64,000 nucleotides of DNA from assembly GCA_029204225.1 (NCBI GenBank), contig MU832109.1, positions 1-64,000 of the forward strand. The letters are read 5' to 3'. The notes beneath the pieces were generated by a model, which saw nothing but the letters and a program-made list of their open reading frames with translations, was not told the origin of the DNA and ran no database searches. Made by a program: the position numbers and the translations under genes. This stretch comes from Diphasiastrum complanatum. Its lineage: Eukaryota > Streptophyta > Lycopodiopsida > Lycopodiales > Lycopodiaceae. Of the stretch, positions 1,468 through 47,417 are shown piece by piece; positions within the stretch are counted from its first letter, which is position 1, and each line of letters begins with the position of its first letter.

Positions 1468-1671
1468 CTACACAGGCAGCTGCACCGTTGATTGCTCAGA
1501 AGATACAGGTATAAAAGGTGACGAAGAAACTTCATCTCCTTCCATTGGCTCTACCACTTGTGGATATGTTGCTGATTTAACATGCTGTATGTCCCATCCT
1601 CTCTGAGGGGGAACTTCAAAAGAAGGTTTGACTTTAAGATATCTGCGGTGGTAGGGGAAGAGGAGCTGCAT
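1468..1671 (-). other. Possible frameshifted C-terminal tail of the BAR-like gene
   Basis: An open frame offset by one base from the last exon. Its peptide segments KPSFEVPPQ and SSSPFIPVS resemble the family tail that normally follows the LP-PP motif ('RSFSIP' and 'SPPLTPI'). No GT-AG intron that would join the frames is visible, so I read it as a small indel near 1640-1660 or a shortened allele. Confidence 0.45.
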
Positions 1672-2611: not shown

Positions 2612-5600
2612 CTGCAACAGAAAACCCAAAACTATCAGTTCTGACTTCTAACATATAGAACTGGCTTAGGGCATTGCAAGCTGTTGGATAGCTTGTTTGG
2701 AAAAGATTCATAATTTCAACAGCCAGATCTAGCTGCAACAGTTAAGGGCATAACAAAATTTTCTACTCTGTTATAGAAAACTTTGTGAAAAGTAACTGAA
2801 GTGAAATGAAATATTCCTCAGCCTTTCACAGAAAACTTAAACAAGTATAGCTCAAGGAAGCCAGGCTACAGAAACGTCTGAGCAAACTGACAACTAGATG
2901 CTTTGCCCAAAAATGAAAAATAATGTGAAAAGCCATTTGAGGAATGCCTATCATAGCAGTAGGTTGAGTAGCTTATCAGTTTCACTAGATAGCCTTCAGT
3001 TGTACGGTAGGCATAAATATCCTGGTACTTAGAAAATTCACATGTACAAATAAATCAGGAGGTTCAGAAAGGCTTACGTAATTTTTGCATGCATTTGTGT
3101 ACATGAGAGGGGCAAAGAGAGAACCTGCTCCAGGCTACTCGAGCTTATTGAGTCATCATGTTCATTTGAAGTTGCCATCACATTGCCAGTTGGATCCCTC
3201 CCATCATCCGAATCGTTATTATGGTTGTTGAAATAGATTCGGTGATCTATCTTGCTTTCTTGTGCCACTAAATCGATGTAAGGTTCAATTTTACTCACAG
3301 ATGCAAAAGCCTTCCGAAATAGATGCACCTGCACAACATATCCTATGTCAGACATCAATGCCGAATACATATGTTTTGGCTAAGGAGTTCTCTAAGGCAA
3401 AGTTAGGTGCTCAAGCGCTTGACTTCCTGGTGCATAATCTACTTCTACAGGCTAATTTGAAAGCCAATAATTTTCTAGATTTTTTGATAGTTAGTTACTG
3501 CGAAAATTTATGGGTTCCACTCTCTCGAGTACCAATTCATGCCCTTAAGCATTCAAGGAAAATGAGTTAGTTCAACCATGGGCATAAATGTAAATGTGAC
3601 ACAGACATACCACACATTGATTCTGTTCTTTATCCATATTGAAAGAACAGCGATGAAGAATTAGGAAATCTTCACCTGATAACTTGTGGAAGTTGACAGA
3701 TAGTCATGCCTTCAAAAGTAGCTGAAGTTTCAATGTAATTGTCAACCACAAAAACATAAGGAGTTTCTTTTTCAAAATTAGGAAGAGAAAGCTTGCATAA
3801 CAAACAATCAATTTGTGTGACGATGTACAGTTGACTAGCGAACTTATAAATTTGTATAAGATTGGCACATGCCATGAACAAGTACTGAAGAACCCATTGA
3901 AGGTTCTTTAACAGAAATGCCTTCACCTTATTTGCAATGGTAGGTTAAGACTGAAAAATGGATAGAGAAACTATGTTCAGCTGTCATTCAAAGAGATGGG
4001 CTAGCCTTGAAGACTGATCTGTGCATTCACTCAAAGAAACAGGCCAGAAAAAGATTCATGCAAATAATAAACCTAATTCCATTGCAAATGAGTGGTCAAA
4101 CGATCAGTCACTTCTTAAGTTGCACCTCTCAAAGGAACTGTGTTCCTAAATTTGACCAAAGCTCCCCAGCTCCTTCCCATTCATTAAAGTTACAAGAACA
4201 AAGACGTACTGGAAACAAGCTACAAAGGTTATCTGAGTGACCGCATGAAAAGTATAGCTGGCAACAACAGGAAGATTGCTTCAACAATCTTTTCTGTGTG
4301 AAATATTTTTTAAGTAACATCAAAAGGGAATAGTCTCAAGTGCTTGTGCCAGTAGTTATTGATGTTTCGATTAAACGTGTGAAACTTTTATTGCTATGTA
4401 GCTAAAACATGCTCACTGAACAAATGCTGGCAACCAAGTCTATCAACTAGCAATAGTAATATCACAGTTGCTACATTAACATACTTTGGCTTATAAGTTT
4501 TCAAATTTGTCACTTGAAAGTTGAGCCGCTTCATTTGTGTCTATTCTGTTCAGACTTCATAGCCAATTCTTGTTGAACCAGATCATATATGCTAATGTGA
4601 TCACTGTATGAAGTTTGAACTTGCGACAGAAAAAATATTTTTCAAGCGGGAGCTCCTTAGACAGTTCACACATTCTTAAACTTTGACATTAGCAAAGGAA
4701 TAAACTCCATATACAAAGAAAATGGATCTACGTTGATTGCAGGTTCGGCATTGAATTTTATCAGCAATCATCAACAGAAACGAACCAGCAAGTAAACCAC
4801 GAATAACATGAAAACGTAGTTCCCATCTATATGTAATAGGTTCATTTCAAACAGTGCATTTGTTTCTAATCTATTGAAAGTGAAAAATAAAAAACCACAA
4901 GAATTGATTGAATGTTCCACGCCTACAGAATGTGTTTTGCTTTGTATGTACAGAATAAATGTGGAACCAAAAAACCCTAGAACAGGTATCAATAAAGAAA
5001 ATGATCTACCTGAAGCTGTTAAGTAATGATAAGATCAGTCAACTATTTGGAAAGTAGACATATAGCTCTAATTGGCTTGCTAGGATTCTAACCTGTGCAG
5101 TATGATGCCGTGACACCTTTGTAATGATGTTGTGGAATCGTCCCTGTTCCAGGGAGAGCACACGACAATCCACAGACATTGCCAGTTCATCAAACTGATG
5201 CTTTGCTGTCTGTAATTGCTGTTCAGCAAAAATTTCACTCTTTCGATTCTTAGGTCTCCCCTTCGTAAGTTGCAAACGAAGATGATCATAAACACCCCTG
5301 CAAACATTCTAGTCAACGACAGTACTAACTACATGTATCCAGTTGCTTCCTAAAGCCAAATACAAGCATGGGCTTACCAAAATGGATCAAACACACTTTG
5401 CTTAGGAAATTTTTTTGGACTGACCTTTTTTCATCATACTTGAGCTTTGTTTCCTGCAAAATCATAATGAAAGTTCAATAAAACATAGGAAAGGCGGTAT
5501 TTCAGAAAAAAAGCCACAATGTTGGCATACTAAACAGCCAAGATCCAAAATAGCATGCTTCCTTGCCGGAAGCATAAATTCTAGCCATTCTAATCAAGGA

Positions 5601-8600
5601 TGTTTCAAAATGTTCCATTCTAAACTCTGTAGACCCACCCCTAACATTCAAACCAACTTTCTCTTATTTTAACTTAAGTCAGTCTAGATTCAGCTGGTAC
5701 TACTTCATTGCATGACTAAATAGTAGAGCAAGAAGCATGGATACAACTTTTAGTACAGTTTAGACTCTGAACAGAAACTGAGCATGTCCATAACTTGAAA
5801 GATGTGCAGCCACATGGAGGTTGGTATGTATATGACAAAAAAAAACCAGCCAATAACAGAGAATGGGACATGTGACCAGTGGCATGGAAGTCTGCCATTA
5901 TAAGTAGAAAATCATAGAAGCTAAACCAACTTGTACTGCTCCTCACAATAACATACCAAAAGCAATAGTTTCATAGCATTGGAACATCGTTCCGTACACG
6001 TCCCATATCTACTTCAATTTATTTTAAGTTCGTAACAAGCTGCATGTGTCCATGATCATCCACGCTAATGGATTGTGGGCTTCTCACCTACCCTTGGGCC
6101 TCGTGCAAACCCAGTTTATCATGGGTTTGTTTTTGGCAGAAAGCTAATCACCACTTCAAATTTTCAAATAATGAATCTTCCTAAGAAGCCTTCATCTTTG
6201 TTCATGCAGCAAGAAATGCCTCCACACACTTCATCAAAAGGGTTGAGAGATTCGATTGTATGGAAAACATGGAGTTCCAAACAGTCCTATGGTGTGCAGT
6301 TCAGAGCTTCTTCAGCTAATGGGAGACAATCAACATGAGGTACTTCTTTGTGACTTACAGTTTGTTTTCAATGACTCTGCTTTCAATAATGTGCATCATG
6401 AAATTAAAAATTTAGATGTTTTGTTAACTGAATTTAATGATTTTTTTTTATAATCTACCTAACAATCAACATGAGGTACTTCTTTGTGACTTACAGTTTG
6501 CTTTCAATAACTCTGTTTTCAATAATGTGCATCATGAAATTAAAAATTTAAATGTTTTGTTAACTGAATTTAATGATTTTTTTTTATAATCTACCTAACA
6601 ATTTGCCGCCCAATAGAGAAGTAGATCATGCAATTAACCTAGTAACCAGTACAACACTTACAGCCAAGCCACCTTATCGGGGTTATAAATAACTAAACAG
6701 TTAATTGAATATCTAAATAAGGGTGAAATTAAACCAAGTAGTTCACCTTGAGTAGCACCCCCATCCTGTTAGTTAAAAAGAAAGGGTGGGGGTCTATGTG
6801 CTTATGTGTAGACTACATAGCTTTAAACAAAGTCACAATTAAGAATAAGTACCCTATGCCTCGGGTAGACGAGGTATTTGATCAACTCGATGGGGTTAGA
6901 TATTTGAATGAAATATATTTGAGGTTGGGATATCATCAAGTCCACATCAAAGTGGAAGATGTCCCAAAAACAGCGTTCAGAACTCGTCACGGTCATTATG
7001 AGTTTAAGTTGATGTCGTTTGGGCTCACCGATGCTCCGACGACGTTTATGACCATGATGAACAATGTTCTTTAGAGATATTTAAGATGATGATACTTTAG
7101 TTTATAGTAAAACTAAAAAAGAGCATCTGGCTCACCTCAGAAAGGTGTTCCGTTTGCTCATAAAGCATAAATTTGCAAAGAAACCTAAATGCAAATTCTT
7201 TACCAGAGAAATAGCGTATTTGGGTCATATAATCTCAAAAGATGGGATTAAGATGGATCCTAATAAGGTCAAGGCCATATTCAATTCGCCAAAACCGACT
7301 AGTATATCAGACGTTCAGCTTTTTCTTGGTCTTTCGAGATATTACCGATGATTTGTCAAGGATTAAGCTCAGATAGCAGTTCCCATAACAAATCTTCTCA
7401 AGGGGAAGGGAAAGGAGTTCATTTGGGGGCCAAAGCAACAAGAGAGTTTTGACGCTCTCAAAACAGCTTTGGTTACGACACCAATACTCAAAGTCGTAGA
7501 CCCAAGTCAGCCTTTTGTGGTCAAAACATGTGCTAGTGACTTTGCGGTATGTGCGGTGTTGAACCAAAACGGAGGGCGAATGGCGTTCGAAAGTAAAAAG
7601 CTCGAGCCAGCCCAAACTAGATACAACGCTTATGAAAAAGAACTTTTTCCATAATTCACGCCCTTAAGACTGGAGACACTATTTGTACGGGCTAAATTTG
7701 AGATTCTGATTGACCATGAAAGCCTTTGGGAAAAGCTCGATGGGCTAAATTAATGCAAGAATTTGACTTGTTTGTCAGATATAAGACGAGTAGAATTCAA
7801 CACAGTGGCATATGCTCTTAGAAGAATGCCAATGGTAAATGAATTAAGTTTTACCCAAAAAGTAATGAGTTACTCAAGTCCTTGAGAGGGAAATGTAAAA
7901 ATGATGTGTATTTCTCCATAGACTAGGAAACAATCCAAGACAAAGATGTACAGACTTCTACACCAATTCCTAGGGCTAGGAAAGATTCATATGACAACTT
8001 TCGTTGAGGATGGAGAATACGCCATATTGCGTTGAGGATTCTGAGTCTATAGGACCCAAGCATAACATCATGGTTGAGGGATCTAGTTCTCAAGGATTTG
8101 AATGGAAACAATATTCCATTCAGGATGAGTATCTAGTTTACAGAAACAAAATATGTGTTCCCAACTCTGCTACACACTACAATCTAACCTCTTCCAAGCT
8201 ACTGACTGACACTGCAATTCTGATAATAAAAAACAAACAGTAGACAATGTTTAACAGCATACAACATCTGAAAAACAACGGAACTTGTAACTATTGTAAT
8301 CAAGCTTTACATCATTCACAGATTGCACACGTCGGGCAGAATGCGGAAATCATCTATTATCATCAATAAGTTTTACATCATAACTTTGGAGCGCTATCCA
8401 CAAGAGAGTCTCTCTCTCTCAAGAATAGCGAGTGTCGCTTACTAGCTCACACTCCTCTTTCATCTCATCAAGTTTCTCTCTCTCGTTGATCCTATATATA
8501 AAGGAACGGAGAGATGATTAATTTAATCAGCAGTAGTCAAAAGAAGTGTTTTACGTTAATCCTAACTACTTCTTGTTGCCCGTTGTTGTCGTCCGTGCTT

Positions 8601-11600
8601 CGTGTTGCTTGCTCTGGTGCTTCGCTGTCCATTCACGTACTGGGAGAGTGAAGATGCGGTGCTATCGCAACCACATGTTGACCGCAGCTAAAGCCATTGC
8701 GGTTCCTTCGGCGTCGTGAACTTTTGCTGCGTGAGCGTGAAGTCTTCATTGAAAGTTACCACAACTGTATACTGACCGCAACTGACGCTTGTGCGGTGCC
8801 TGGGCGGTCCATTTCCTTCATGTGTTGAAACCGCACGTAGACCATATGGGTTGACCTGCGGTGTCCCGGCGGTGCCTCGGTGGTATGTCCACTTTGCATA
8901 GTGACCGCAGATAGACCGAATACGAAACTCCTACGGAGTCTGAGCGGTGCCTCGACGGTGTCTTGCGGTGCGTTAGCGGAGCCTTGGCAGTATCTTGACG
9001 GTATTGCCAATGTAGAAAAATCAACATCTACTCCATGAAAGAGATGCAAACTCAACAAGAACATGAGCAAACATCAAACATAAGATATGATGCTGTCGTA
9101 CAAAAACAGTAAGCTACTGTATTTCACATGTGTGGATCCGAAAATAGCATAAAATAAGCATTCTACACACAAGCTTGCAAGATATCACAAATATAGTGCA
9201 CCAATGGATAGATGAACCCAAGAGAACTCATGTATAAATAAGCATGAAGTAAGATAAGAGAGAGAGAATGTGTCTCTTCCCATGAGTGTACAACTATATA
9301 TAGCAGATCCATGACTCATTAATGAGTTTGGTTTCCCTCCATAACAAAAACCCTAGCATTAATGTGGACTAGATTCAAATGTCTCCACATTCAAATTGAA
9401 TCTTCTAAAACTTGTGTACTACACTTTCCCACACTTTCAAAAAGTGTTTATTGAAATGCTTTTAGACTAATATAACTTTGAAAAGTCAAACTCTAAGTCT
9501 AATAAGAAAATTGGCCTCAATTGCCAAATATACAAATATGACCAAAATAGCAAAACTAGTTGAAATTTCTCACACTCCCTCTTCAACTAGTTTTAGCATA
9601 GACTTTGAGAACACTCCAAGTGAAGTCCTATGCTTCATGAACAAGTCCTTTCCCAATGCTTTGGTAAAGACACAAGACTTTGCATCTACCATATGAAATC
9701 TTTCTAGAATAAAATTAGCATACTTCTCTTGACAAATGAAAGTAGATTGAGAAGATCTAATCACTTCTATTTCTAAAATGTAACGCAAATGACCAAGATC
9801 ATGCACCTCAAACTCCTTGTTGAGAGCACTCTTGATATCCTCCACATCTTGGTTGTCTCCACACTCAAGATGATATCATCCACATAGATTAGCAAAATGG
9901 TAACATCATTTCCAGCAAACCTATAATAAAGTGAATGATCATACTCACTCATAACAAAGCCTTGAGAGAGTAAAAAAGTGTTAAGCTTAGCATACGAGCT
10001 CCTTGGTGCTTGCTTAAGGCCATATAAACTCTTTTGTAAAAGAAACACATGATTTGGCTTTGTAGGTGAAATGTAGCTCTCGGGTTGCTCCATGTACACT
10101 TCCTCCTCAAAATCACCATTCAAAAAAGCATTTGTGATATCCAATTGCCATAGATCCCATCCACAAAGAGTAGCAAGAGAGATGATGACCCGAATGCTTA
10201 GGGTGAAAAGGTTTCATCATAGTCAATACCATGTTCTTGAGCATATCCTTTTGCCACCAACCTTGCCTTATGCTTATTGATAGATCCATCTTGGTTTGTC
10301 TTCACCTTGAAGATCCATTTACATCCAATAGCTTTCTTGTCCTTAGGTAACTCCACCAATCTCCATGTTTCATTCTTCATAAAAGCTTGATACTCAAGAT
10401 CCATTGCTTGGATCCACTCCTCTTTGTTCCTTGCTTCATTTACACAAGTAGGTTCATCAAAAGAGGAAAGCAAAGTGTGTACCTCCAACAACTTGCTTAC
10501 CTTTCTCATCATATGTGAGCCTCAAAGGCATATGTTTTTTCCTTGATGTTTTCCTTGGCTTTGGACTTGATGAAGGTTCTTCATCATCACAATCTAAAGT
10601 AGGATCCTTTACATCATCATCAAGAATGTTAGATCCATCCACACCATTATCACTTGAAGACACCTTTGGAATATTCTCCTCATAAAAAAAGACATTTCTA
10701 CCAATAATCACCTTATTAATAGTAAGAATGTAAACCTTGTAGGCTTTACTCACCTCACTATATCCAACAAATATACCTTTCCTTGAAGATGGATCCTCCT
10801 TTGTTCTATCATCAAGAGTTATATTGACATAGCACGTACATCCAAAAGTTTTAAGAAAGACACTCGGCCTCCTCTTGAATAGCATCTCAAAAGGTGTCCT
10901 TCCATCCAATATAGCACTCGGCCATCTATTGCATAGAAAGTTAGCACACAACAAAGCTTGATCCCAAAATGGTTTTGGAAGATTAGCACCTAACCTCATG
11001 GCTTTGGCACTTTCACATAAAGTTCTATTCTTTCTCTCGGCCACTCCATTTTGTTGTGGGTGTCCTTGGAGTTGTGTACTCCCTCTCGATCCCATGCTCA
11101 TCAAAAAAAGCCTTGAACTTGGTAGATATGTACTCTCCACCATTGTCACTCCTCAAGCACTTGATCTTTGTCGAAAATTGGTTCTCCCTTGCATTCTTGA
11201 ACTTCACAAAGACATCATACACTTCATCTTTGTTCTTTAGTAGAAAATCTACTAAAATCATTAATGAAAGTTACATACATCTTAGCTCCACTATTGCTAA
11301 TTGTAGTAATTCCATGAATATCCAAATGTACAAGGCTTTGTAGATCTAGATGTAGATCTAGTATAAGGTAGTCTATGTGACTTTGACAAAGCACAAGACT
11401 CACAAACATGATTGATGCTAATTAAGGATCTTGGAAGATCAATCACAATTTGCTTCTTAGCTATTACCTCCAATGACTTGAAGTTGAGGTGCCCCATCCT
11501 TTTATGCCAAACTTCTTGAATAAGTATTTGCTCACTTGCCACAAATCCAACTTAGTTAGCAATAACACAAGAAACTAGTTTGAACAACTTCTCTTGTCTT

Positions 11601-19459: not shown

Positions 19460-19546
<87 letters not shown>

Positions 19547-37500: not shown

Positions 37501-40500
37501 AAAAATATGACACCTAGGCGAGAGTGGTTGTCTAGTTTTCATTAACTAGATGATGGAACATATTTGACATTGGGAGATAGGGAGTTGAAAAAGTACAGAT
37601 TCAACTACCTTCAAGGAAGATTGTAGACATTGCAGACGTGCTTTATGTATCAAGAATTAGAAAGAACTTACTCTCAGTATTGGCTAAGCAACATATGGTT
37701 GTGCAGTTTGATGAAAAGTGGTGTCTCATCAAAAGGAAAGACAATGAAGTAGTAGCTGAGGGCATACTTGCAAGAAGGTTGTACAAACTTCAGGCTCAGT
37801 CATTGCGGAAAGGAAGAACCGGCCTATTGTGGAAACTGCGAGGAGTATGCTCAAAAGTAAGAATCTTCCAAATATGTTTTGGGGTGAAGCAGTTAAGACG
37901 ACGATTTTCTTTTGAATCGAAGTCCTACAAAGGTTGTAGAGAATCGGACTCCAGAGGAAGCTTACATTGGTCAGAAACCTGAAGTGAGTCATTTGAGGGG
38001 TTTTTGGAAGTATTGCATATGCTCACATACTTAAGGATTCGAGGAGCAAATTGGATTCAAAGGCGACCAAGTGTTTACTTCTTGGATATGATAATCAAGA
38101 GTAGGGATACAGGTTGCATGACTTGGAGGATAAAAAATTCATCATAAGCAAGGATGTGATCTTTGATGAGGATGGATCTCATAAAGATACAGAGTTATCT
38201 TATGATTGGAAGCAAGATGGAGGAATTCCTATCATGTGTGACAAGTCATTACAAGAGCCTGAATCAACACGTGTGCCGCCTACACCAATCCAAGTATCTA
38301 GAGTGACCATTGATGAGAAAGGAAAAAGGAAGGAGAGATAAAGTACATGGGATACTTATTCACCTCCTACTTCACCAGGTAGGAAGCATCCTACTTCAGA
38401 TACTGGAAGATTGCCTAGATGGTACTATGAAACTATCAAGGATAGTGTCATTTTGGAACAGGGAGACTCCAGTACAAAGGAAATTAGATCTACCAGACTT
38501 GAAAAACATCATGAAGATCAGGATGGACAGGAGGATCATCATGTGGATAAGGATGCACACTTTGCATATATGGCCACAATGTTGGAAACCAAGGAGGCTG
38601 AAAAAGAGGATATGTGGAGGAAAGCTATGGATGAGGAATACAACTCAATCATGAAGAACAAGACTTGGAGACTTGTTCAATTGCTTACAGGTGAAAAGGC
38701 CATTGGATTCAAGTGGTTCTATAGAACTAAGTATAAATCAGATGGTTCTATAGATAAACATAAGGCAAGGTTGGTTGCAAAAGGGTATGCTCAATAGGAA
38801 GGGATTGACTATGAAGAACTTATAGTCAGGTTGCTATGAGGATGGTTTTGTTACTGGCAGCTCAGTTTGGATGGGATATTCAACAAATGGATGTGAAGAG
38901 TGCATCCCTAAATGGATTTCTAGAAGAGGAAGTCTACATGGAGCAGCCAGAGGGATACATAGTAGCAGGACATGAAGACAAGGTTTGCAAGTTGGACAAA
39001 GCATTATATAGACTTAAGCAAGCACCCAGAGCATGGTACACAAGGATTGACACATACTTTGAGGAGCTTGGTTTTCAAAGGAGTATTTCGAAGCCTACAC
39101 ATTATGTTTTGATCAAGGGCGATCATATTGTGATTGTAGTGATGTACGTGGATGACCTTGTTATCACAGGTTCGGATCATCGTGTGATCCAGAATATCAA
39201 GAAAGATCTCAAAAGTTCGACATGAAAGATCCTGGTTCACTACAATACTTCCTTGAGATTGAGGTATGGAGAGTAGCACACCGACTATTTATTTCTCACT
39301 CTAAGTATGGTCATGAACTTTTTGAGAAGCTCAATATGTTAGTGCAAGCCTATTTCTACACCATATGATAGTGGATGTAAGCTTACTAAGGCTCAGGATG
39401 ATCAGGATGTAGATGAGACGTTATATAGAAAGCTTGTTGGAAGCTTAATCTATCTAACTACTACGAGACCAAATATTGCTTATGTTGTTAGTATGATTAG
39501 ACAGTTTATGGCTAAGCCTAAGCAGGTCCACTGGAGAGCTACTAAGCAAGTACTTGGATATATCCAGGGTACATTGAGGTTTGGTATTCTCTATGGGAGA
39601 CAAAATGTTTTGCAATTACAGGATATGTGGATGCTGATTGGGATGGAGATGCAGAAGACTAACGATCTACTACAAGTTATGTTATTAGTCTTGGTTCCGG
39701 TGCTATATCTTGGAGTTCAAAGAAACAACATACTATTGCATTATCATCTACAGAGGTAGAGTATCGGGCTACTATGAGTGCGGCAAGTGAAGCAATATGG
39801 TTACGAAGGATTCTACAAGATCTTCATATGGACATGATACACCTACAATACTTCAGTGCGAATATCAAAGTTGTATTAAAATGGCAACGAATCCAGTTTT
39901 TCACAGCAGCACAAAGCACATCGAAGTACAACAACAGTTCATCAGAGAGAAGAGAAGATTCAAAGTGATGACATGGAGCTTATATATTGCCCTACAAAAG
40001 AGCAATTTGAGGATATCTTTACCAAAGGACTTGGTTTCAGAAGTTTAGAGAACTTCTAGGAGTGATAGATAACAAAGTAAACATTAAGGGGGAGTGTTAA
40101 AAATTAATATTTATTTGCACCCCTAATGTTGGTTTGGCCATGCCTGAAAGCTATTTTAAGGGCTATTTTCTATTTTTTATAATTCCTAAAGTCAATTTAG
40201 TTGTTCATGCATGTAGGTGGGCACACTAGTTCTAGGATAGAACTTGGTTTTAATACTTAGTCATTCATTATGGGTCTTTACCAAAAATAGGTAGCAATAA
40301 TAGTAATCAGCTTTTTGCCCTTAGCTTTTGCGTTATGCTTTTGGCTTTTCACAAGGAGTAGAGAAAGTATTTAAGTAGGTTGGCGCCCCACCACAACAAA
40401 TCCATTCCATTATATAGAGCTTTGCTCATTCCTCTATAATCAAAGTTCTCTTAATCTCTTATTCTGGTCTTGGTGTGTGTGAGTGCTATTATGATTGATG

Positions 40501-43500
40501 AACTCCTTTGAGGAGTTTATGCTATTTCTTCTTGGCTTGAGATTTTTGTTCTGATTCATCTTTTATTAGTTGGTTATTGATTGAAAACTTATATAGGTAC
40601 TTTCATGAACACAAACTATATGACTACCAAGTAGAGCTCCTAAATAACCAAAGGAAATATTGAAGACTTATATGGGTGGAAAACTAAGAAAAATAGATGG
40701 TGGAAATGTGGGAGGTACATGTAGGCAAGGCGATACTTTAGTTCTAAAGGGCTAGTCGAGGACTTGACATGCCTATGTACGAATCATCTACCCGAGGGTT
40801 AGCCCACCATAAGCTACATTGACGACAGGTAGCCACAACTACTACTTGGCCCAAGCTAGGTCAAATGTGTCACTAGCTAAGCTTCTCTGATGAGTTTCAA
40901 GAGATCCAAGTTGGGGATGACAATCATAGATCTAGTCGTTAGAGCAAAGTTAGCAGGTACACGACGAGAAGCTAATTAACAACTTGTCAAGCAAGTCAAA
41001 TTGACAATTGCATCATGCAAGACTTGGAGTGATCATTTTCAATTGCCATAATACTATAATGCTAAGTTAAGGACATGCGTAATTGATTACTTGAGGACCA
41101 AAATGAAAGGTAGAGAATATAAAAAGCAATCTAAGCTAGAGAGGAGATTCATTCTCACCACCAATTAGTTGTAGTTCACAAGTTTGGAGGGCATAGTCCT
41201 CAAATAAGGAATCGTACCTTTGTTCTAGAGAGGAAGCCATGATCTCCACAAAGAGACTTCTTTTAGGAGAAAACTTCGCATTTAAGTATTTTGTTGAGAA
41301 CCTGATGGAATCCTCAAGCAGAAGACTAACTTCTACTCTTTAAGAATTCATAGCAATGATTTGCTAACTAGAAAATCTTCATTTACATTGTTGATTGGAG
41401 CATATCATTCATTGAATCGCTTTTTCCCCCACCTTTAAGAGATGAGTGCATAATTGATGCTCCTCATAACAAAGTTAATTTTTCATTCATGTCATTATCT
41501 TTCTATATCACTAAAATAATCAAAATTCTTTTCCTGTTATGGTTTATTTCTATCAAATGTCAATAAGATCACATATTGTAACATGCTACAAGAATCATCA
41601 TCAAATTAGTTAATAGCCATTTATCACTAACCTTGATTTGGTCAATAGAATCAGCGGCTTGTACTCAATAGGATTCAACAATTTGACAAGCTCAAATGGA
41701 GGGCATAGGAAGATCAATTAGTTCATAACTTCATAGGAACCAAATAGACCACTAAGAATCCTAAGGTCAATAGATCGAATATATCAATGATAGTAATTGT
41801 ATCAAACGTATTATGCTATTAGTCCAAAAGAATGTAATTGACACCATCAAAGGATTGATTAAGCATCTCTTCGAATGACTCTATTTTCAAACTTAACTTC
41901 TCAATAAGTTCTTATCCAAATAATATAAGAGATGGCTTCAATCATAGTTGTTTTTATTACATTCTTTCTAATAAAAAACATGCCTTGTGAAAGTAATCAA
42001 ATCATTGTACCTCTAGTCAACTCATAGACATTATGTAGCATGTTTTCATGAAACACAGTGCTGCAAATGTGCGCCTATCTAATGCAGAAGTGCGCTACTC
42101 AATGCATTTAGTTTATTGGATCTAGATACACCAAAACAAATCACAGACAATGGAACAATTAATCAAGCAATAATGGATGCAACGCCGAAATCACAGTTGG
42201 AAGAACAGAATAGCCTTTGTATTTTGTTTCTCAGAGTAAGTTGGTAGTGCAACAACGCGACATGGCGGCCTGATGCTCCTCTTACAATCTCGCTTATCTT
42301 CTATATATCATCCTCACCTATTCTATTGATTCCTGGTCTATACTTATGTCCCGCTAGATGGGATTAAAAGATAGTTCAACTAATCGTTACAAGAGAGAAT
42401 TACGTTAAACAATAAGTTAACTACATTCTCTTGTAACGTTCCTTTACGGCTGAGCGTGACAGTTTCAAGCTTCACGTCCGACAGGCTAAGGCCCGATAAT
42501 TTGAGTCGCCCGACGGCTCGTTTGCCCCAAAGTCAGTCTCAGCACTTGCATTGGAATTCGATAGTTCGGTTTCGATGCTGCGCCGATTTGTCGGCCGTTC
42601 AGGGAATGCTGGAGAAAAGTTGCATGAGTTCACCATCTCTAACACATAGAATACGATTTGTTTGCAAAATAAAATCACCTTTAACTTTCTCTATGTTATG
42701 GACATCATGTCTAGATTGGTACCCTTTGTTGATTCATCTTGTGCATATGGGTGCTCATTTTATGCATGTGTTGGCCAGGCACCCTTTTTATTCATGTAGA
42801 GGCTTGGAGGCCTTTTTATCATTTACATTTTATTCTAGAACTATTACTAATTGATTAGTTGAGGAGGTGACATACAAGAGGTGCACTTTTCTCTCTCTAC
42901 ATTTCCATTGTGGGACTTTATCTCCTCTAGTATTTAGAGGCTTCCATTTTAGGGCCTTTGTTGGGTATTATAGGGACTAGAGACGCTCAATGTTTAATTT
43001 TTCACTTTAGGAGAAATCATTGCTATTGCTTGTAGGGCATTAGATTTTGATTACATGGCATCATTTGCCTTTCTACATGGGAGATTGCTATTGATTCTCA
43101 TTCATGGTCTTTTATGCTTGATTGTTTTCATAACTTGGTATCAAAACACTTCTTGAGCAATGGGAAGACGTCGACTTGTAATTTTTGTTTGTCTTTCCTC
43201 TCTCTTTGGCCAATTCCCTCTCTCAACACCTAAATCGACATTTTGCCATTTTTCGTATGTGATCAAAATTGAATTATGTCAATCGCATTGGTTTCCTAGT
43301 CATCGGACACCTCTATAGTTTTCAAAAGACTTTGATTTTATACTTTAAAGAAGGTTATTCATTTTGTAATTTTTGGCGACAAAAGTTGGAAATAAACACA
43401 TCACTGGAAGCGAAAGACCATGCCACACCTACAGAAGGAAGCAACACATTGAAGATCTTGAAGGTGAAATTTTGGTCAAAATAGGAAAGTATTATGTTTT

Positions 43501-46143
43501 ATGCAAACAAATTTTTCTTTGATGTTGAGTGGATCTTTACATTCTTTGCTAACCAACAAGTGCAAAAAACTTTATGACTCATCAATCAAATGTCTCTATC
43601 TGAAGATATCCTACTTCAAAGTTCTTGCATCAAAGAAAAGTTTGCATCACAAAGGACAGCCATCTGTAGTCATTGGTGCCAAGTTTTAAAGTGATTTTGG
43701 ACTTTGTACCACCTACATTGCTCACTGATTTTTACAACAGTAGTGCACAATCTATATTGGCATCTCCAACACTTACCTTTTTGAGGAATTCTCACACTTT
43801 TATTGCTCTATTTGCATGCCAATATTTACAACATGTGAATAGTCTTTAATGCCAAGTAGCGCTAGGATTTCTATACTAATTTTGCTTCATATATGCTTGT
43901 TGATTGTCAGCATACATTTATCATCTTTAGGTAGTCCTTTTCAGCCTATTAGTTTTTGTGTGGACCTAAGATCTACTTGGGGACAACAAGAGTCCAAATT
44001 CTCACTAGCTTCGTATTGCATACTTTTGCCCTAATTGTGCTTTTAATCCACTTATTGAAATTTCCACCTTTTCAATATTCTCACTTGTTTCTCTCACTTT
44101 TTGTCACTTTATTGTTTATTTCGCTTGTTTTTTATTTTGTTCACAACATTTTTGTGCATGTCAAAAAAGACAAGTTGACGTTTCCCACTTGCATTTTCTT
44201 ATGGCATATTCTAACTCATGTAAAGGACCTGTCTAATATGGGTCCTTTGGGGACACTGAATTGGAAAACTGGTTGAATAGATTAGAGTCCTATTTTAAGA
44301 TCTATCCGACATCATGCTTTCAAACTTACATTGATTTCTTCATTCTAAATCTTGGAGAGAGGCATATAGACGTGATGCCACCCCTTCCGATAGGGATACT
44401 TTTCTCGAGCATGTTATTCATGCTATGTATCAAGTAGATGATTCACAAGACGTTCCCAATGTGGTACATGACTAGGATATATCTCATCCACCACTTAATA
44501 CTCCAGGTTCATGTAGATGAGGTCACAAATGTATGTCATGCTTAGAAGATATTAAAAATGAGATTTTTGTACATAATCTAGATTATGTAGAGTTTCTAGT
44601 TGCAGCACAGGTTCAAGCTAGTACATAAGATGTTCCATTTTTGGCAAGGGTTACATATCCAGATGAAGAGGATCTTCAAGATTCTTTAAGTTTGTTCTAA
44701 AGCTCAAAATCAAGTCTACTTGGATACATCATTTCTTCAGCCTTCATCTCCGAGGTGCTTAGCTCTCCAAGCTCCTCAAGAAACCAACTAGCTTGATTCT
44801 TGACTCTTCTTCCATCCATAGGCAATCTTCACAAAAAACCAAATCACCCACTTCCAATTTACTATAGGTACGATGCTTGCATGCATGACTCTTTGTGCCT
44901 GAGCCTTGAAAAGGTTTAGCCTCACAACCTCAAGGATGTCTTGCATTTGAGTTTAAAACTCGACGCCACTCAGTACCTTCCAAGGGAGGCTTACAATAAT
45001 TGGACACGTCAACCAATAACCATAAATCAACTCGAATGGACTCATAACAATGGACACATGTTTATTGTCATTATACACAAACTCAACTAAGGGCAGAGAT
45101 ACTTTGCCCAATCAATTTGTACCTCACTAACGTATGTTTTAAGCATGTCCTCTAAAACCTGGTTAACCTTCTCTATTTGCCCACCTATTTTGGGTGCTCA
45201 CTACTTCTCTTCCGCAACGCAATTCCTAGACAAGAAAACATTGTGAACCAAAAAATTCCCATGAACTTAGGGTCTCTATGTTACGTCCATGTCCAGTTCA
45301 GAGGATTCGCAATAATCCTTGACATGGGTATTCGGCACTCCAACGTAGGTTTATTGGTTATGCCTCACCTTTTGGACAAGGCCAGAAATATAATTAATAA
45401 CCTTGTGAGCTCCTAGGCACTCCAATTAGGACATGTGGAGTAATGCATGGTGATTGACCACGTTTTATGCATGTTGAGGAGATAAAAAACAATTGGATGA
45501 GAATTGAGATCCTGCAAGGAATATTCCTAGGCATCAGGGGTCTATATTTCTCGGCCTCCTCCACTTCCAAACTTCGATTTCCAGTTACCATCATACTGCC
45601 AACCTTACACATCCTAAAATCGACAAAAATTGTGCCACATTATCTAGTTAAGTGTTTTGTCTACATATTTCCCACATCTACTCATGCCATCAAATCTCAC
45701 TGCTAGATTTTACAATAAAAAATTCAGTACTCTAAAACGCAACAGTTAGAGAAGGTTATCTCAAGCCTTCAGAATTCTATAATATTAGCATCCTTGTAAG
45801 TCGTTTCTTAAATGACCAAGTTGCAACTAAGCATTCGGCTCTGGGACAATTGGATTGCTATTTGGATGGGACTGCCATAGGCTTCTAACTACGAGAGTCT
45901 CATGCATTGGGAAATGAAATTTTCATTAACAAGCTACGTGAGCGGTATGTACTATGCACATCCAGCCAAAAAAACGATAATCAACAGGTGATAAAAGGCG
46001 AAGTCAAGTGAAAGTCTTTTGCAAACCTCCATCCTTTTGGCAACCTCTTCAAGATCCTCTGTCGGTTCCTCATAGCTAGACGCTGTCTTATCCTTAGCAC
46101 GGTGTAGTGCAAATTTCCTTAATTTGTTCCAGGAGGATTTCAT
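1634..46143 (-). CDS. BAR/IMD-like, proline-rich protein (9 coding exons, ~603 aa)
   Basis: Joined from nine exons at 46143-46027, 28450-28378, 24853-24779, 24586-24525, 24413-24345, 5453-5425, 5297-5093, 3328-3125 and 2611-1634. Every junction is GT-AG and the reading phase is kept throughout (834 nt before the last exon). Residues about 1-240 follow, block by block, the plant family labelled 'hydroxyproline-rich glycoprotein' (Arabidopsis At2g33490/At3g26910 type). Landmarks are an MKSSxxKLRxxALH start, LTIPTESMLHEL, YDEKRGVYDHL, and an SRHHTAQ-to-HLFRKAFASV block near residues 204-219. This region is predicted to be a helical BAR/IMD-like membrane-binding fold. Residues about 280-603 are Pro/Ser-rich and probably disordered. 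The molecular role is not established; membrane-curvature or trafficking work is an inference. The Met at 46143 was chosen because it matches the family N-terminus. The last exon has a possible frameshift at its end. Introns 1 and 5 hold most of the window's retroelements. Confidence 0.8.
3125..3328 (-). CDS. BAR-like gene, coding exon 8
   Basis: A 204-nt exon, exactly 68 codons, beginning VHLFRKAFASVSKIEPYIDL. It finishes the helical domain and passes into an acidic, Asn/Asp/Ser-rich linker. Acceptor TGCAG, donor GTTCTC. Confidence 0.85.
3329..5092 (-). other. Intron 7 of the BAR-like gene
   Basis: A 1.76-kb intron between exons 7 and 8. It is AT-rich, with no transposon protein or RNA gene seen. 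Confidence 0.6.
5093..5297 (-). CDS. BAR-like gene, coding exon 7
   Basis: A 205-nt exon encoding residues about 142-210, from GVYDHLRLQLTKGRPKNRKS to SLEQGRFHNIITKVSRHHTA. Acceptor TGCAG, donor GTTAGA. It carries the basic helix-linker and the conserved 'RHHAAQ' element of the family. Confidence 0.85.
5425..5453 (-). CDS. BAR-like gene, coding exon 6 (29-nt microexon)
   Basis: A 29-nt exon encoding ETKLKYDEK plus two bases of the next codon. Acceptor TGCAG, donor GTCAGT. The following exon restores the frame to give DEKRGVYDHL, the family's 'CDEKRNVYEGML' block. Confidence 0.8.
6327..6598 (+). repeat. 136-bp tandem duplication inside gypsy G1
   Basis: Two head-to-tail copies, 6327-6462 and 6463-6598, with only a few base differences by eye (for example tttgttttcaatgactctgc versus tttgctttcaataactctgt). 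The unit codes for part of the pro-RT linker just before the PPNREVDHAINL block, so this protein stretch is duplicated. Confidence 0.9.
6748..7074 (+). pseudogene. Gypsy G1 reverse transcriptase fragment
   Basis: An open stretch of RT fingers and palm, with CVDYIALNKVTIKNKYPMPR and the FRTRHGHYEFKLMSFGLTDA motif. It terminates immediately before the catalytic YLDD segment, which follows after a stop. Confidence 0.85.
7145..7735 (+). pseudogene. Gypsy G1 RT connection/RNase H fragment
   Basis: Open segments give FTREIAYLGHIISKDGIKMD, FLGLSRYYR and the RNase H core FVVKTCASDFAVCAVLNQNG, typical of Ty3/gypsy pol. They are interrupted by stops at about 7350 and 7652. Confidence 0.85.
8168..9016 (-). 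repeat. Copia A left LTR
   Basis: Starts TGCTACACACTACAATCTAA and ends TGTAGA on the plus strand, giving short TGCTACA/TGTAGA-type inverted ends. It matches the right LTR over hundreds of bases (for example gcggaaatcatctattatca in both). Only a few short CT runs stand where the right LTR has a long CT tract. Confidence 0.7.
9117..9574 (-). repeat. Copia C 3' LTR
   Basis: Right boundary is TCTCACA at 9574, next to the reversed polypurine tract ctccctcttcaac (9575-9587). The left boundary near 9117 (TGTATTTCACATG) is an estimate. A TATA-like element (CTATATATAG on the minus strand) lies near 9295. Confidence 0.55.
9570..10512 (-). pseudogene. Copia C reverse transcriptase
   Basis: Segments in order: NEARNKEEWIQAMDLEYQAF, NKHKARLVAKGYAQEHGIDY, MDITNAFLNGDFEEEVYMEQ, KSLYGLKQAPRSSYAKLN, and the catalytic YVDDIIL, then LGHLRYILEIEV. 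These match the copia RVT_2 domain. Frames change at about 10200 and 9800. The final open frame runs straight into the polypurine tract and LTR, so RNase H has been deleted. Confidence 0.9.
10457..11542 (-). pseudogene. Copia C pre-integrase/integrase
   Basis: Shows VWHKRMGHLNFKSLEVI, CESCALSKSHRLPY, RSDNGGEYISTKFKAFF, QQNGVAERKNRTLCESAKAM and LKTFGCTCYVNITLDDRTK. Broken into at least three frames. Confidence 0.9.
11552..12779 (-). pseudogene. Copia C gag, zinc knuckle and protease-region remnants
   Basis: Gag segments (KLYESKSTSRALTLRKQIFQ) at 12595-12383, then a Lys-rich tail with one CCHC knuckle, CFYCGIKGHSASEC, near 12030-12080. The protease-to-pre-integrase stretch follows (DGECAIKGSGTI, ITKNLLSVSQLLSKGF) at 11845-11552. 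Confidence 0.85.
13301..13779 (+). repeat. Copia B 5' LTR
   Basis: Begins TGTTGGAATGTAAATGGAAT and ends GCTTCTATTTCCTACA, next to the primer site. It matches, in reverse orientation, both LTRs of element D. It contains GGGCTATATATATGTGTGC, a TATA-like element at about 13599. Confidence 0.95.
13780..13792 (+). promoter_or_regulatory. Copia B primer-binding site
   Basis: TGGTATCAGAGCC directly after the LTR, complementary to the 3' end of initiator tRNA-Met, the usual copia primer. Confidence 0.95.
14381..15375 (+). pseudogene. Copia B gag
   Basis: Starts MAKESESIGSLFNENRLDGT. It is interrupted by a stop soon after (GL*EVV, about 14497), then stays open with the gag core (KSAWETLAKMFQVKNAAKVV) to a frameshift near 14925. 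The following frame holds the knuckle CHYCKKFGHHIKEC at about 15154-15195. Confidence 0.9.
15420..16929 (+). pseudogene. Copia B protease/pre-integrase/integrase, fused to copia A sequence
   Basis: The protease site VIDSGATRHMTYH is at about 15433, followed by a frameshift. A long open frame from 15496 then gives the pre-integrase finger, HSDVCGPTRTESIGRCKYFV, RTDRGGAIYKEY (one residue off the usual RTDRGGEY), PQQNGVVERKNRTIMEMARC and HLRIFGCTAYAFIPDKLRTK. The last ~26 codons (from GHMLHIQ) come from copia A read on the wrong strand. Confidence 0.9.
16829..17759 (-). pseudogene. Copia A GAG_pre-integrase and integrase core, truncated
   Basis: From a short frame at 17759-17568 into an open frame ending at 16829. 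It shows the pre-integrase HH-type finger (LWHRRLCHMNTVALY ... CNKGKM) and the integrase core with HSDICGPF, FIDDFSKFATVYF, RTDRGGEY and PQQNGVAERRKRTLMEAAR. It ends abruptly after VRIFGCVAYA, where sequence of copia B in opposite orientation begins. RT and RNase H are absent. Confidence 0.9.
17770..18639 (-). pseudogene. Copia A gag C-terminus, two zinc knuckles, protease
   Basis: Reads through the gag helical region (YLLRALPRSFQTTRTLLAKD), a charged Lys/Arg/Glu stretch, two CCHC knuckles (CMRCRRDGHTVDTC and CIHCHKMGHAAVDC), then the aspartic protease active site DSGATSHFV. It ends near 17770, where the frame shifts. Two knuckles rather than one is a feature of some copia lineages. Confidence 0.9.
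18608..18979 (-). pseudogene. Copia A gag, N-terminal part
   Basis: Starts at ATG 18979 (MASISNIQLKICTVLEVDGS), just downstream of a tRNA-Met primer site. It contains the NYLAWKVKTSLILRG segment typical of copia gag (UBN2-like). The frame breaks near 18640 and gag continues in another frame. Confidence 0.8.
18995..19054 (-). promoter_or_regulatory. Copia A primer-binding sites (duplicated)
   Basis: Reverse complements of ggctctgatacca (18995-19007) and tgctttgatacca (19042-19054) give TGGTATCAGAGCC and TGGTATCAAAGCA, both tRNA-Met-type primer sites. They lie 47 bp apart and 80-140 bp from the apparent LTR end, instead of directly next to it. Confidence 0.65.
19134..20168 (-). repeat. Copia A right LTR (5' LTR), with (TC)40 and GCGGTGC-rich tract
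   Basis: Starts TGCTACATACTACAACCTAA. It is longer than the left LTR mainly because of the 80-bp TC run and extra GCGGTGCCTCTGGCGGTATC-like units near 20035-20125. Its promoter would drive element A on the minus strand. Confidence 0.7.
19463..19542. repeat. (TC)40 microsatellite
   Basis: Eighty bases of uninterrupted TC repeats within the right LTR of copia A. The matching site in the left LTR (about 8474-8485) has only a few units. Confidence 0.97.
20169..21060 (+). mobile_element. Ty3/gypsy G1, 3' part (integrase)
   Basis: Resumes immediately after copia A's right LTR. It shows the end of the zinc-binding domain (FFWPNIKRDVQLYVTSCHKC), the catalytic-core region (MNFIVGLPKTQKGYDVIWVI), RVNQVLEDML, YNNAKHSATGYSPF and a C-terminal LPANS-type block. 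Many stops. No 3' LTR was recognised. Confidence 0.8.
21061..24344. other. Intronic stretch without a recognised gene
   Basis: AT-rich intron 5 sequence. At 22991-23004 the reverse complement of gggctttgatacca is a tRNA-Met primer-like site on the minus strand, hinting at the leader of another copia remnant. Two AACGCGTT-centred palindromes occur near 23163 and 24030. No protein domain was seen. Confidence 0.4.
24345..24413 (-). CDS. BAR-like gene, coding exon 5
   Basis: A 69-nt exon, exactly 23 codons, containing SNTLTIPTESMLHELQVAE. Acceptor TGCAG, donor GTATCA. It is one of the best-conserved family blocks ('ITIPSESLLNELRIVE'). An 18.9-kb intron follows. Confidence 0.8.
24525..24586 (-). 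CDS. BAR-like gene, coding exon 4
   Basis: A 62-nt exon encoding NVLRMVGKVQLDISQSLDLY. Acceptor TTCAG and a weaker donor, GTCTGT; phase 1 to 0. It aligns with the 'VLLMLGKLQFELQKLVDKY' block. Confidence 0.75.
24779..24853 (-). CDS. BAR-like gene, coding exon 3
   Basis: A 75-nt exon encoding FAEAVQDMGKYLINNYGPMD plus DENA. Acceptor ACAG, donor GTAAGC; phase 1 to 1. It aligns with the 'SESLRDMGACLLEK' block of the family. Confidence 0.75.
27340..28045. repeat. Possible small element with GGAACG/CGTTCC-rich inverted ends
   Basis: The left end (near 27345-27368) reads gaaacggaacgcgttccgga. The right end (about 27990-28028) has ccggaacgtacgg and ggaacggaacgttcc. The ends are imperfect inverted matches, unlike the AT-rich flanks. 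Between them is a 124-codon minus-strand open frame. It could be a small non-autonomous transposon; no target duplication was verified. Confidence 0.35.
27407..27781 (-). CDS. Orphan ORF, 124 aa, unknown
   Basis: Peptide with PLSDPKIEDVFYSVNRDFEV and EVGEFLSLDALGFASDIDKY; acidic and Pro/Ser-rich at its N-terminal side. It has coding-like composition but no recognised domain. It lies in intron 2 on the host gene's strand and inside the GC-ended block. It may be a retroelement gag/linker fragment or a captured exon piece; its start codon is not supported by context. Confidence 0.25.
   Translation of the reverse strand: MLSEYLKSSNPSVELIAPTAQVDRPDYFQLGAKLPAEIAVTEVKTLVSPAPLNSSQGSSQHGTLNCPQGLASAPPLSDPKIEDVFYSVNRDFEVGEFLSLDALGFASDIDKYAQQEARTKISHT
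28378..28450 (-). CDS. BAR-like gene, coding exon 2
   Basis: A 73-nt exon encoding KLKEMRNFYEGLHKLSSHV and a few more residues. Acceptor TTGCAG and donor GTGAGT are strong; phase goes from 0 to 1. The peptide aligns with the 'DMRDCYDSLLSAA' block of the plant family. It is separated from exon 1 by a 17.6-kb intron. Confidence 0.75.
28451..31421. other. Intron 1 segment without a recognised gene
   Basis: AT-rich; apart from the orphan frame at 30211-30545 I see no domain, RNA gene or clear repeat ends. Confidence 0.4.
30211..30495 (-). CDS. Orphan ORF fragment, possible gypsy gag-protease linker
   Basis: The frame stays open upstream of the first ATG to about 30545 (IAPLPSEVPVTPVDFPLQSD). 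It contains LASRMDISLGELMRMAPQAK, whose style resembles the short helical 'SLGELL' segment before gypsy proteases. No catalytic Asp motif follows. It lies in intron 1. The assignment is an inference from motif style only. Confidence 0.3.
   Translation of the reverse strand: MQSDQNDCLHHHEKQFHMGEHEVPQSGVLASLLASRMDISLGELMRMAPQAKSILTDWLNSEAGPTTKEPLYYTGYEGTSNVLHIGAAWESEDA
31422..31807 (+). repeat. Copia E 5' LTR
   Basis: Matches 40095-40483 over its length (for example tttatttgcacccctaatgt in both), with numerous differences, so it is clearly older than element D. It ends at the D insertion point in ...gtgtgtgtga. Confidence 0.9.
31808..32309 (-). repeat. Copia D 3' LTR
   Basis: Left copy of the LTR pair, next to the polypurine tract TTTAAGGAGGG (minus strand). 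It shows an internal near-repeat, tatccaactacttgactatt, occurring two to three times. Confidence 0.95.
32428..33154 (-). pseudogene. Copia D second, divergent linker/RT-start block
   Basis: Two overlapping frames carry a weaker copy of the linker at 33740-33380: EQPAEDYGQHGP, GQQSVEQPI, LLETLQDSK, GRKAHASLKSVPLADI and REDVMSKEF echo EQPIEDIGQQGP, GQQSVDEGK, LLQTLQDSK, EGKTRASTKSEEFADF and WEDAMQEEY. It lies between the truncated RT and the 3' LTR, where RT/RNase H should be. Confidence 0.7.
33160..34326 (-). pseudogene. Copia D integrase end, linker and RT N-terminus with core deleted
   Basis: Open for 388 codons: TPQQNGVAERKNRTIMEMAR, HLRIFGCTAYAFIPDKLRTK, a Gln/Pro/Glu-rich linker, then RT start CWEDAMQEEYNSLMKNHTWV. 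After VLVDLPHG the frame passes at once to RIFISQQRYIEQMLKQSSFF, which is the RT C-terminal segment. The catalytic palm with YVDD is missing, with the joint near 33368. Confidence 0.9.
34443..35240 (-). pseudogene. Copia D protease and pre-integrase/integrase start
   Basis: Protease site VIDSGATRHMTYH near 35200, pre-integrase LWHARFGHLNFASLKMLKRF and CEGCILGKFQRQAFPIDG, then HSDVCGPMRTESIGRCKYFV. Frame breaks occur at about 35070 and 34443. Confidence 0.9.
35205..36220 (-). pseudogene. Copia D gag with zinc knuckle
   Basis: ATG at 36220 (MTKESESIGWLDGTNYSLWC). Gag core KSAWETLAKMFQVKNATKVV, knuckle CHYCKKFGHHIKECKKR near 35410-35460. The frame shifts at about 35840, so gag is not one open frame. 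Unlike copia B, the early TGA is a Trp codon here (GLWEVV). Confidence 0.9.
36798..36810 (-). promoter_or_regulatory. Copia D primer-binding site
   Basis: Reverse complement TGGTATCAGAGCC abuts the 5' LTR, complementary to initiator tRNA-Met. Confidence 0.95.
36811..37310 (-). repeat. Copia D 5' LTR
   Basis: Right copy of the LTR pair. It lies directly beside the reversed primer site ggctctgatacca at 36798-36810. A TATA-like TATATATA lies near 36980. Confidence 0.95.
37603..38340 (+). pseudogene. Copia E pre-integrase joined to integrase C-terminus
   Basis: Reads VSRIRKNLLSVLAKQHMVVQ and the pre-integrase segment to about 37800. It then goes directly to a frame resembling 'VETARSMLKSKNLPNMFWGE' (37820-37890) and, frame-shifted, 'SHLRGF' and YRLHDLEDKKFIISKDVIFD. 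The D,D-35-E catalytic core is deleted. Confidence 0.8.
38411..39290 (+). pseudogene. Copia E reverse transcriptase
   Basis: WRKAMDEEYNSIMKNKTWRL, KHKARLVAKGYAQ, then after stops QQMDVKSASLNGFLEEEVYM, KALYRLKQAPRAWYTRID and the catalytic VMYVDDLVITGSD. Near-complete RVT_2 domain with stops at about 38797 and 38833 and a frameshift at about 39215. Confidence 0.9.
39400..40050 (+). pseudogene. Copia E RNase H region
   Basis: Segments DETLYRKLVGSLIYLTTTRP, MIRQFMAKPKQVHWRATKQV, then frame changes into AASEAIWLRRILQDLHMDMI and a late 'KHIEVQQQFIREK'. Typical copia RNase H order, with at least three frameshifts. Confidence 0.85.
40095..40483 (+). repeat. Copia E 3' LTR
   Basis: Begins TGTTAAAAATTAATATTTAT directly after the polypurine tract AAGGGGGAG. 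Similarity to the 5' LTR fades after ggtgtgtgtgag. It contains a TATA-like AGTATTTAAG near 40366. Confidence 0.85.
40484..43100. other. Intron 1 segment without a recognised gene
   Basis: AT-rich. A locally GC-richer stretch near 42440-42620 supports overlapping open frames on both strands but no domain. Short TATA-like and LTR-like sequence near 42050-42320 could be a solo LTR; the ends were not found. Confidence 0.35.
43130..44420 (+). mobile_element. Decayed retroelement leader and gag-like remnant
   Basis: AACTTGGTATCAAAACAC at about 43134 resembles a tRNA-Met primer site on the plus strand. At about 44260-44340, NWLNRLESYFKIYP resembles the 'NWLxRLExYF' start of gypsy gag. Many stops. 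The two may not belong to the same element. Confidence 0.35.
44700..45190 (-). mobile_element. Ty3/gypsy G4 integrase remnant
   Basis: On the minus strand, starting near 45180: a RVNQ-type block (VNQVLEDMLKTYVSEVQIDW, AKYL), then frame-shifted 'LVEFVYND' and 'SPFELIYGY' blocks and a C-terminal tail near 44720-44780. This is the C-terminal half of a gypsy integrase core, with several stops. Confidence 0.65.
45191..46026. other. Intron 1 segment next to exon 1, nothing recognised
   Basis: Mixed open frames on both strands with no domain. It contains the intron 1 donor at its right end. Confidence 0.35.
46027..46143 (-). CDS. BAR-like gene, coding exon 1
   Basis: Encodes residues 1-39, starting MKSSWNKLRKFALHRAKDK, a short basic family-typical N-terminus followed by an acidic stretch. 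The exon ends after GAG in phase 0 with donor GTTTGC. An in-frame Met lies 22 codons upstream, but a likely 5'UTR splice acceptor lies between the two, so the downstream Met is preferred. Confidence 0.8.
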
Positions 46144-47158: not shown

Positions 47159-47417
47159 TGTGGATTCACTCTAGGGTTGGTAATACGCATGTGCTATGTT
47201 TTGGTTGTCAAGCTTTGTCGTCGTAGCGATAAGCTGTTGTGATGCGGATTCACTCCATGGTTGGTTTGATAATACGCATGTGCTATGTTTGGGTTGTCAG
47301 CTTTGTCGTCGTAGTGATAAGCTGTTGTGATGTGGATTCACTCTATGGTTGGGTTTGGTAATATGCATGTGCTATTTTTTAGTTGTTAGCTTTGTTGTGA
47401 TAGTGATAAGCTATTGT
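47159..47417. repeat. Tandem array of three ~84-88-bp units
   Basis: Units start near 47159, 47243 and 47331, each beginning tgyggattcactc and ending aagctgttgtga or similar. A shorter, more diverged copy seems to precede the array (from about 47110). Not coding. Confidence 0.9.

Follow-up and report, generated by a model that had tools for sequence, protein, structure and literature searches.

A nine-exon gene with 1.8 kb of protein code extends over 44,510 bp on the minus strand of the Diphasiastrum complanatum window (46143 to 1634), and its excess length lies mostly in introns 1, 2, and 5, of which the first and the last hold nested copia retrotransposons. The window, i.e., the stretch of DNA analyzed, consists of the first 64,000 bases of contig C591 (86,839 bp), which belongs to an assembly of 1.745 Gb in 5,176 contigs. 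The locus is, in all likelihood, a protein-coding plant gene; its predicted product of 603 aa carries a BAR domain at the N-terminus, followed by a long C-terminal region rich in Pro and Ser. Two paralogs of like architecture, hereafter B and C, occur in the same genome, the window gene being designated A. The locus represents a clear but ordinary case of transposon-driven intron growth, and the general picture for large plant genomes is unchanged by it.

Gene model and predicted protein

The nine exons of the minus-strand gene join in phase to a coding sequence of 1,812 nt including the stop codon, in which the codons upstream of codon 603 are free of stops and frameshifts, and all eight introns are bounded by GT–AG. 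Exon 1 (46143-46027; 117 nt, 39 aa) opens with the start codon at 46143-46141 and corresponds to C2:53909044-53909160 in paralog B and C17:24662992-24663108 in paralog C. Counterparts in both paralogs are likewise present for exon 2 (28450-28378; 73 nt), exon 3 (24853-24779; 75 nt), exon 5 (24413-24345; 69 nt), the 29-nt micro-exon 6 (5453-5425), exon 7 (5297-5093; 205 nt), and exon 8 (3328-3125; 204 nt). The donor of exon 4 (24586-24525; 62 nt) reads TTAT followed by gtctgt, a junction common to paralog B; ends at 24521 or 24524 were rejected because they break the frame, which an end at 24525 keeps. Exon 9 (2611-1634; 978 nt including TAA) encodes the Pro/Ser-rich C-terminal half. Introns 1–8 measure 17,576, 3,524, 192, 111, 18,891, 127, 1,764, and 513 bp, respectively.

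The sequence-only reading that preceded this analysis had proposed a single in-phase gene of nine exons with GT–AG introns, a span of about 44.5 kb, and two introns of more than 17 kb. The 603-aa frame, the splice sites, and the two paralogs support this model, the earlier exon coordinates are right, and the two long introns are introns 1 and 5. The exon sizes given there (29–205 nt) apply to exons 1–8 and omit the last exon of 978 nt.

The N-terminal 252 aa match the Pfam model BAR_3 (PF16746) over residues 28–233 with 34.4 bits at a cut-off of 31.7; the full-length protein, at 31.4 bits, is marginally under that cut-off. At E ≤ 0.1, BAR_3 matches all three paralogs (best 3.6e-11) and the BAR model PF03114 matches two of them, while no IMD model is found among the seven families matched by any of the three; the label BAR/IMD-like, which had been attached to the protein, is thus retained in its first half and dropped in its second. 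Two sequence searches of the PDB returned no BAR structure, one being empty and the other yielding five matches that are weak or of the coiled-coil type: designed coiled coils, a chimera, and the arm chain of a dynein. Judging from its domain family, the protein would bind or bend membranes as a BAR dimer. A relationship with the At2g33490-type plant proteins, an uncharacterised or hydroxyproline-rich glycoprotein family, is plausible. The likeness would consist of a BAR-type domain at the N-terminus, a tail rich in Pro and Ser, and a similar protein start along with several motifs. The label "uncharacterized protein At2g33490-like" is used in PMC8585624.

The C-terminal end differs among the three proteins. 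Protein A stops with TAA after PLPLPPQIS, whereas B is about 20 residues longer and C more than 60 residues longer. Downstream of the stop of A, the minus strand at 1468..1633 is open in another frame and resembles the in-frame tail of paralog C with a score of 60, which none of 1000 shuffles reaches (best shuffle 50); the allele on contig C16, described below, is identical to C591 in this region. Unless the frame is regained through one more splice, a conserved tail has probably been lost from the C-terminus of protein A; the 3' end may be decaying slowly, or a last splice there may have gone unrecognised. Paralog B also ends early, with the rest kept open.

The surroundings of the gene include an acyltransferase-like gene at 55073-57524 on the plus strand, arranged head-to-head with the BAR gene, which has at least three exons and matches PF01553 with 33.1 bits (cut-off 23). 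A tandem repeat of 89 bp in 2.7 copies (47177-47417) lies upstream of exon 1 at a distance of about 1 kb.

Paralogs and intron sizes

When the whole genome was searched with the 603-aa protein, 27 matches were obtained, located on the C591/C16 pair, on C2 and C21 (exon 1 being matched there on C2 and on the small contig C4677), and on C17. All nine exons are found in order in paralog B (C2:53909044-53967648, 58.6 kb) and in paralog C (C17:24662992-24702008, 39.0 kb); both sequences were read apart from 53948501-53954500 (intron 5 of B) and 24690501-24693000 (intron 7 of C). Exons 1–7 are of equal length in all three paralogs (117, 73, 75, 62, 69, 29, and 205 nt), and exons 8 and 9 vary. When exons 1–8 were compared with B and C, none of 100 shuffles reached the real score in 15 of the 16 exon-paralog tests, the exception being the 10-aa exon 6 in paralog C, where one of 100 did. 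Exon 9 matches B with an E-value of 6.5e-107 and C with 1.6e-27. Protein identity is 64% between A and B and about 42% for A–C and B–C.

The BAR part of the protein is under purifying selection. Over residues 1–235, dN/dS (NG86) is 0.335 for A–B, 0.131 for A–C, and 0.159 for B–C, while in the part after residue 235 it is 0.678 for A–B, indicating weak constraint, 0.393 for A–C, and 0.479 for B–C; Ks is saturated for the pairs with C. The synonymous distance between A and B is 0.42.

Several observations concern the copies themselves. The donor of exon 6 in paralog C carries GC in place of GT (C17:24689690). The exon 9 region on C21 (C21:35310901-35316000) differs from that of B on C2 at one of 1,153 bases, so this copy is either the other haplotype of B, through a haplotype mix-up, or a very recent duplicate, though the two lie on different chromosome-size contigs. 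A segmental duplication that included the neighboring gene was considered and rejected, as acyltransferase-like matches occur on C591, on C16 (two places), and on C11, and none lies beside B or C.

The intron sizes of the paralogs are similarly ordered. Introns 1–8 measure 5,981, 22,451, 194, 131, 25,113, 141, 1,831, and 945 bp in B and 9,990, 15,542, 260, 145, 336, 189, 3,187, and 7,388 bp in C, the last value being a best guess because the exon 9 acceptor in C was picked among several AGs. Introns 1 and 2 together total 21–28 kb in all three paralogs, and introns 3, 4, and 6 do not exceed 260 bp in any of them; intron 5, giant in both A and B, comprises 336 bp in C. The rank correlation of intron size over the eight introns is 0.976 for A–B, 0.714 for A–C, and 0.738 for B–C.

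Myosin and chaperonin genes of the same genome provide a baseline of 41 gaps that separate adjacent matches. Their median is 262 bp; four of them reach at least 5 kb and one at least 15 kb (19.8 kb, on C12), whereas five of the 24 introns of the three BAR genes are of 15 kb or more. The baseline counts gaps with a profile gap of at most 12, leaving aside 32 wider ones, and draws on 50 of 81 myosin and 40 of 65 chaperonin matches. Set aside were matches on small contigs, those of a second, almost identical myosin copy on C21, and matches that occur singly or in pairs on large contigs; among these are another two adjacent gaps of short length (C6 near 52.85 Mb and C9 near 50.37 Mb). The 41 gaps include two from a pair of near-identical chaperonin loci on C2 and also cover a third, similar locus on C21. 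Two further myosin gaps of 21.5 and 17.0 kb span 20–21 profile positions and may hide a short exon. In addition, the acyltransferase-like relative on C11 has a gap of 20.4 kb between adjacent parts, at the place of a first intron that measures about 0.3 kb in the window and at C16:23.30 Mb. The three BAR genes are therefore in the upper tail of intron size in this genome, not alone in it. The view of A as an exceptional single gene is not supported, because giant introns recur at corresponding positions in its paralogs (introns 1/2 in all three genes, intron 5 in two) and gaps of 17–21 kb occur in other genes.

Retrotransposons and probable haplotypes at the locus

The stretch bounded by a recognised copia complex accounts for 52% of intron 1 (28451..46026, 17,576 bp), and 69% of intron 5 (5454..24344, 18,891 bp) lies in recognised repeat or between copia complex ends; these fractions rest on hand-drawn intervals in which everything between paired ends counts as repeat. 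The best-delimited element, F (31808..37310, minus strand, sense to the gene), lies in intron 1 and has the features of Ty1/copia elements, namely two paired LTRs of about 500 bp at a Kimura distance of 0.016 and, on both sides, a 5-bp target duplication, TGTGA, identified by eye. It is nested in an outer copia element on the plus strand (31421..40482), the LTR-like ends of which (31421-31806 and 40094-40482) are separated by a Kimura distance of 0.122. Intron 5 contains an outer nested copia complex on the minus strand (8167..20064), with LTR-like ends at 8167-8993 and 19133-20064 (Kimura distance 0.107), and a partial copy of F on the plus strand, antisense to the gene (13301..16851). For the outer elements of both introns, the paired ends are the LTR evidence, with no target duplication established.

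The coding content of the two introns agrees with these assignments. Of 12 open frames scanned, seven exceed the cut-off of copia-type models, three fall below it, and two have no match, the models representing reverse transcriptase, integrase-associated, and gag domains. RVT_2 is matched over its cut-off at 9773-10213 and 38815-39225, SH3_retrovirus at 10457-11152, 15463-16929, and 33160-34425, and Gag_2 at 14498-14932, while a zinc-knuckle match at 11924-12376 remains just under its cut-off. On the minus strand, the SH3_retrovirus frame at 10457-11152 precedes the RVT_2 frame at 9773-10213, which is the integrase-before-reverse-transcriptase order of copia elements.

Allowing at most three mismatches, a 47-nt tag of the LTR of element F is found 743 + 721 times in the genome, or about 0.84 per Mb, and the reversed control does not occur. 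Two copies in one gene of 44.5 kb exceed the expectation of an even spread, although this is a post hoc observation and transposons cluster. A further copy is present in intron 2 of paralog B. The three LTR-paired elements of A are younger than the A–B duplication, because their LTR distances are smaller than the A–B Ks and because F occupies different introns in the two genes (introns 1 and 5 in A; intron 2 in B). An older component is suggested by the repeat at 6245..7470 in intron 5, which recurs in intron 5 of B as two copies in inverted arrangement (C2 near 53942077-53943199 and 53954728-53955853; 76–81% identical), one of which shares its orientation relative to the gene and lies farther from exon 6. 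This repeat may be an insertion that predates the A–B duplication and was inherited, in which case intron 5 would have been growing already before the split, and part of its bulk may be inherited rather than acquired separately in A and B. Long introns may grow because a large silent target would take further insertions cheaply, with partial deletions trimming it, as the four stretches of 55–1,277 bp missing from C16 (see below) would illustrate. Transcription would run through the copia-filled introns, and splicing would probably proceed normally as modeled, by analogy with other transposon-filled plant introns.

The two F copies in introns 1 and 5 are inverted relative to each other, and the partial copy at 13301-16851 aligns with 37310-33781 at 93.8% identity over 3,592 columns. 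They enclose exons 2–5, a stop-free block of 279 nt (93 codons) that runs from phase 0 to phase 0, and they supply the long reverse-complementary flanking repeats that are looked for around circRNAs. Opposite orientation of such copies could favor back-splicing or inversion. Pairing of the 3.5 kb of about 94% complementarity in the pre-mRNA might yield a back-spliced circle of exons 2–5 whose open frame has no end, or the in-frame loss of BAR residues 40–132 by skipping, so that retrotransposon orientation would tune the amount of working protein; we consider this outcome unlikely. The reading is weakened because reverse-complementary flanks are seldom seen in plants according to a study of tea circRNAs, in which the flanking introns are long and LTR-rich (PMC9861842). 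In mammals, circles are linked to young transposons (PMC8516420).

A second copy of the locus is found on contig C16. C591 is collinear with C16 over bases 1-85,202 of its 86,839 (compared with C16:10,540,001-10,640,000), the counterpart of window positions 1-64000 lying within C16:10552592-10640000. In alignments longer than 1 kb, 218 mismatches are counted in 83,882 columns (0.26%), a stretch of about 1.3 kb that C16 carries twice being counted twice. Eight of the nine exons are identical, and exon 9 shows one synonymous difference. C591 is thus most likely the second haplotype of the C16 locus; a recent gene duplication is less likely, as the collinearity makes another haplotype the simpler explanation. 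The gene on C16 is shorter, at about 42.5 kb, mainly through four missing stretches of 166, 1,277, 424, and 55 bp in introns 5, 2, 1, and 1, respectively. Short microhomology is present at their junctions, and in one case most of an LTR is gone along with its flank, which favors deletions in C16 as the likelier direction. For the 1,277-bp stretch in intron 2 (26776..28052), a transposon insertion was also considered and rejected, and a deletion in C16 appears likelier, as no recognisable element boundary falls at its ends and the junction has microhomology.

This stretch contains an open frame of 130 aa on the minus strand (27407-27799) without a Pfam match, which belongs to a family of 57 matching genome pieces, itself included, with GTTCCG-rich borders that resemble element ends by eye. 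At window position 60994, C16 carries about 0.86 kb of extra sequence relative to the window haplotype. Other small contigs also repeat matches of chromosome loci, e.g., C481, C903, C1424, C3646, C4746, and C4995.

Alternative readings of the locus can be weighed against these data. The locus might comprise two or three genes or fragments, with transposon blocks between genes in place of the giant introns and the full protein made from B and C only. The loss of the C-terminal tail in A and the sense-oriented copia sequence in introns 1 and 5 would be compatible with this, since copia LTRs can serve as poly(A) sites, as described for COPIA-R7 in RPP7 (PMC7529245). However, open frame, phase, and splice sites are kept in all exons, with haplotypes that differ by one synonymous base, and exons 1–8 jointly encode one conserved domain with a like arrangement in B and C. 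As exons 5 and 6 of C lie just 336 bp apart, they belong to one gene, and a split of A is accordingly very unlikely. A recently decaying pseudogene, as the transposon load and the displaced tail could imply, is no more probable: the tail relic is out of frame and the A–B comparison indicates weak C-terminal constraint, but the BAR region is constrained between A and B, the frame is intact up to codon 603, the one exonic difference between haplotypes is silent, and B also ends early with the rest kept open. Misjoined repeats as the source of the giant introns are the least credible option, for although the assembly contains many duplicated small contigs, C591 among them, C591 and C16 carry the same introns collinearly, with differences that are mainly indels, a comparison of partial independence as both belong to one assembly.

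A single gene with transposon-filled introns thus remains the preferred reading. Overall, the sequence-only reading was correct as to the gene, its nine exons, the transposon-swollen introns, and the BAR-type protein, and it went too far in the IMD label and in the exceptional status, which the similar paralogs contradict. The probable second-haplotype origin of the contig and the apparent truncation of the C-terminal end were beyond the reach of a reading from sequence alone.

Comparison with known systems

The three paralogs offer an example in which the exon structure is fixed while particular introns, and not others, are swollen by retrotransposons. The gene could be useful for testing transcription and splicing across tens of kilobases of transposon in plants, and it calls for care in annotating the Diphasiastrum complanatum genome and in purging its haplotigs.

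Among described systems, RPP7 shares with the BAR gene a copia element in a long intron that must be read through for a full transcript; its intronic copia LTR is reported to act as a premature poly(A) site kept in check by EDM2 (PMC7529245). In contrast to RPP7, the BAR gene is not an NLR. The swelling of a few introns by LTR retrotransposons is also a feature of MSH1 and of conifer genes. A few introns of MSH1 have grown by LTR elements to an extreme of 101 kb (PMC10487979), and conifers conserve exon number and size as well as the positions of long introns between Picea and Pinus (PMC4108047). The introns of the BAR gene are smaller than the MSH1 extreme, and, unlike the conifer comparison between genera, the present one is made among paralogs of one genome.
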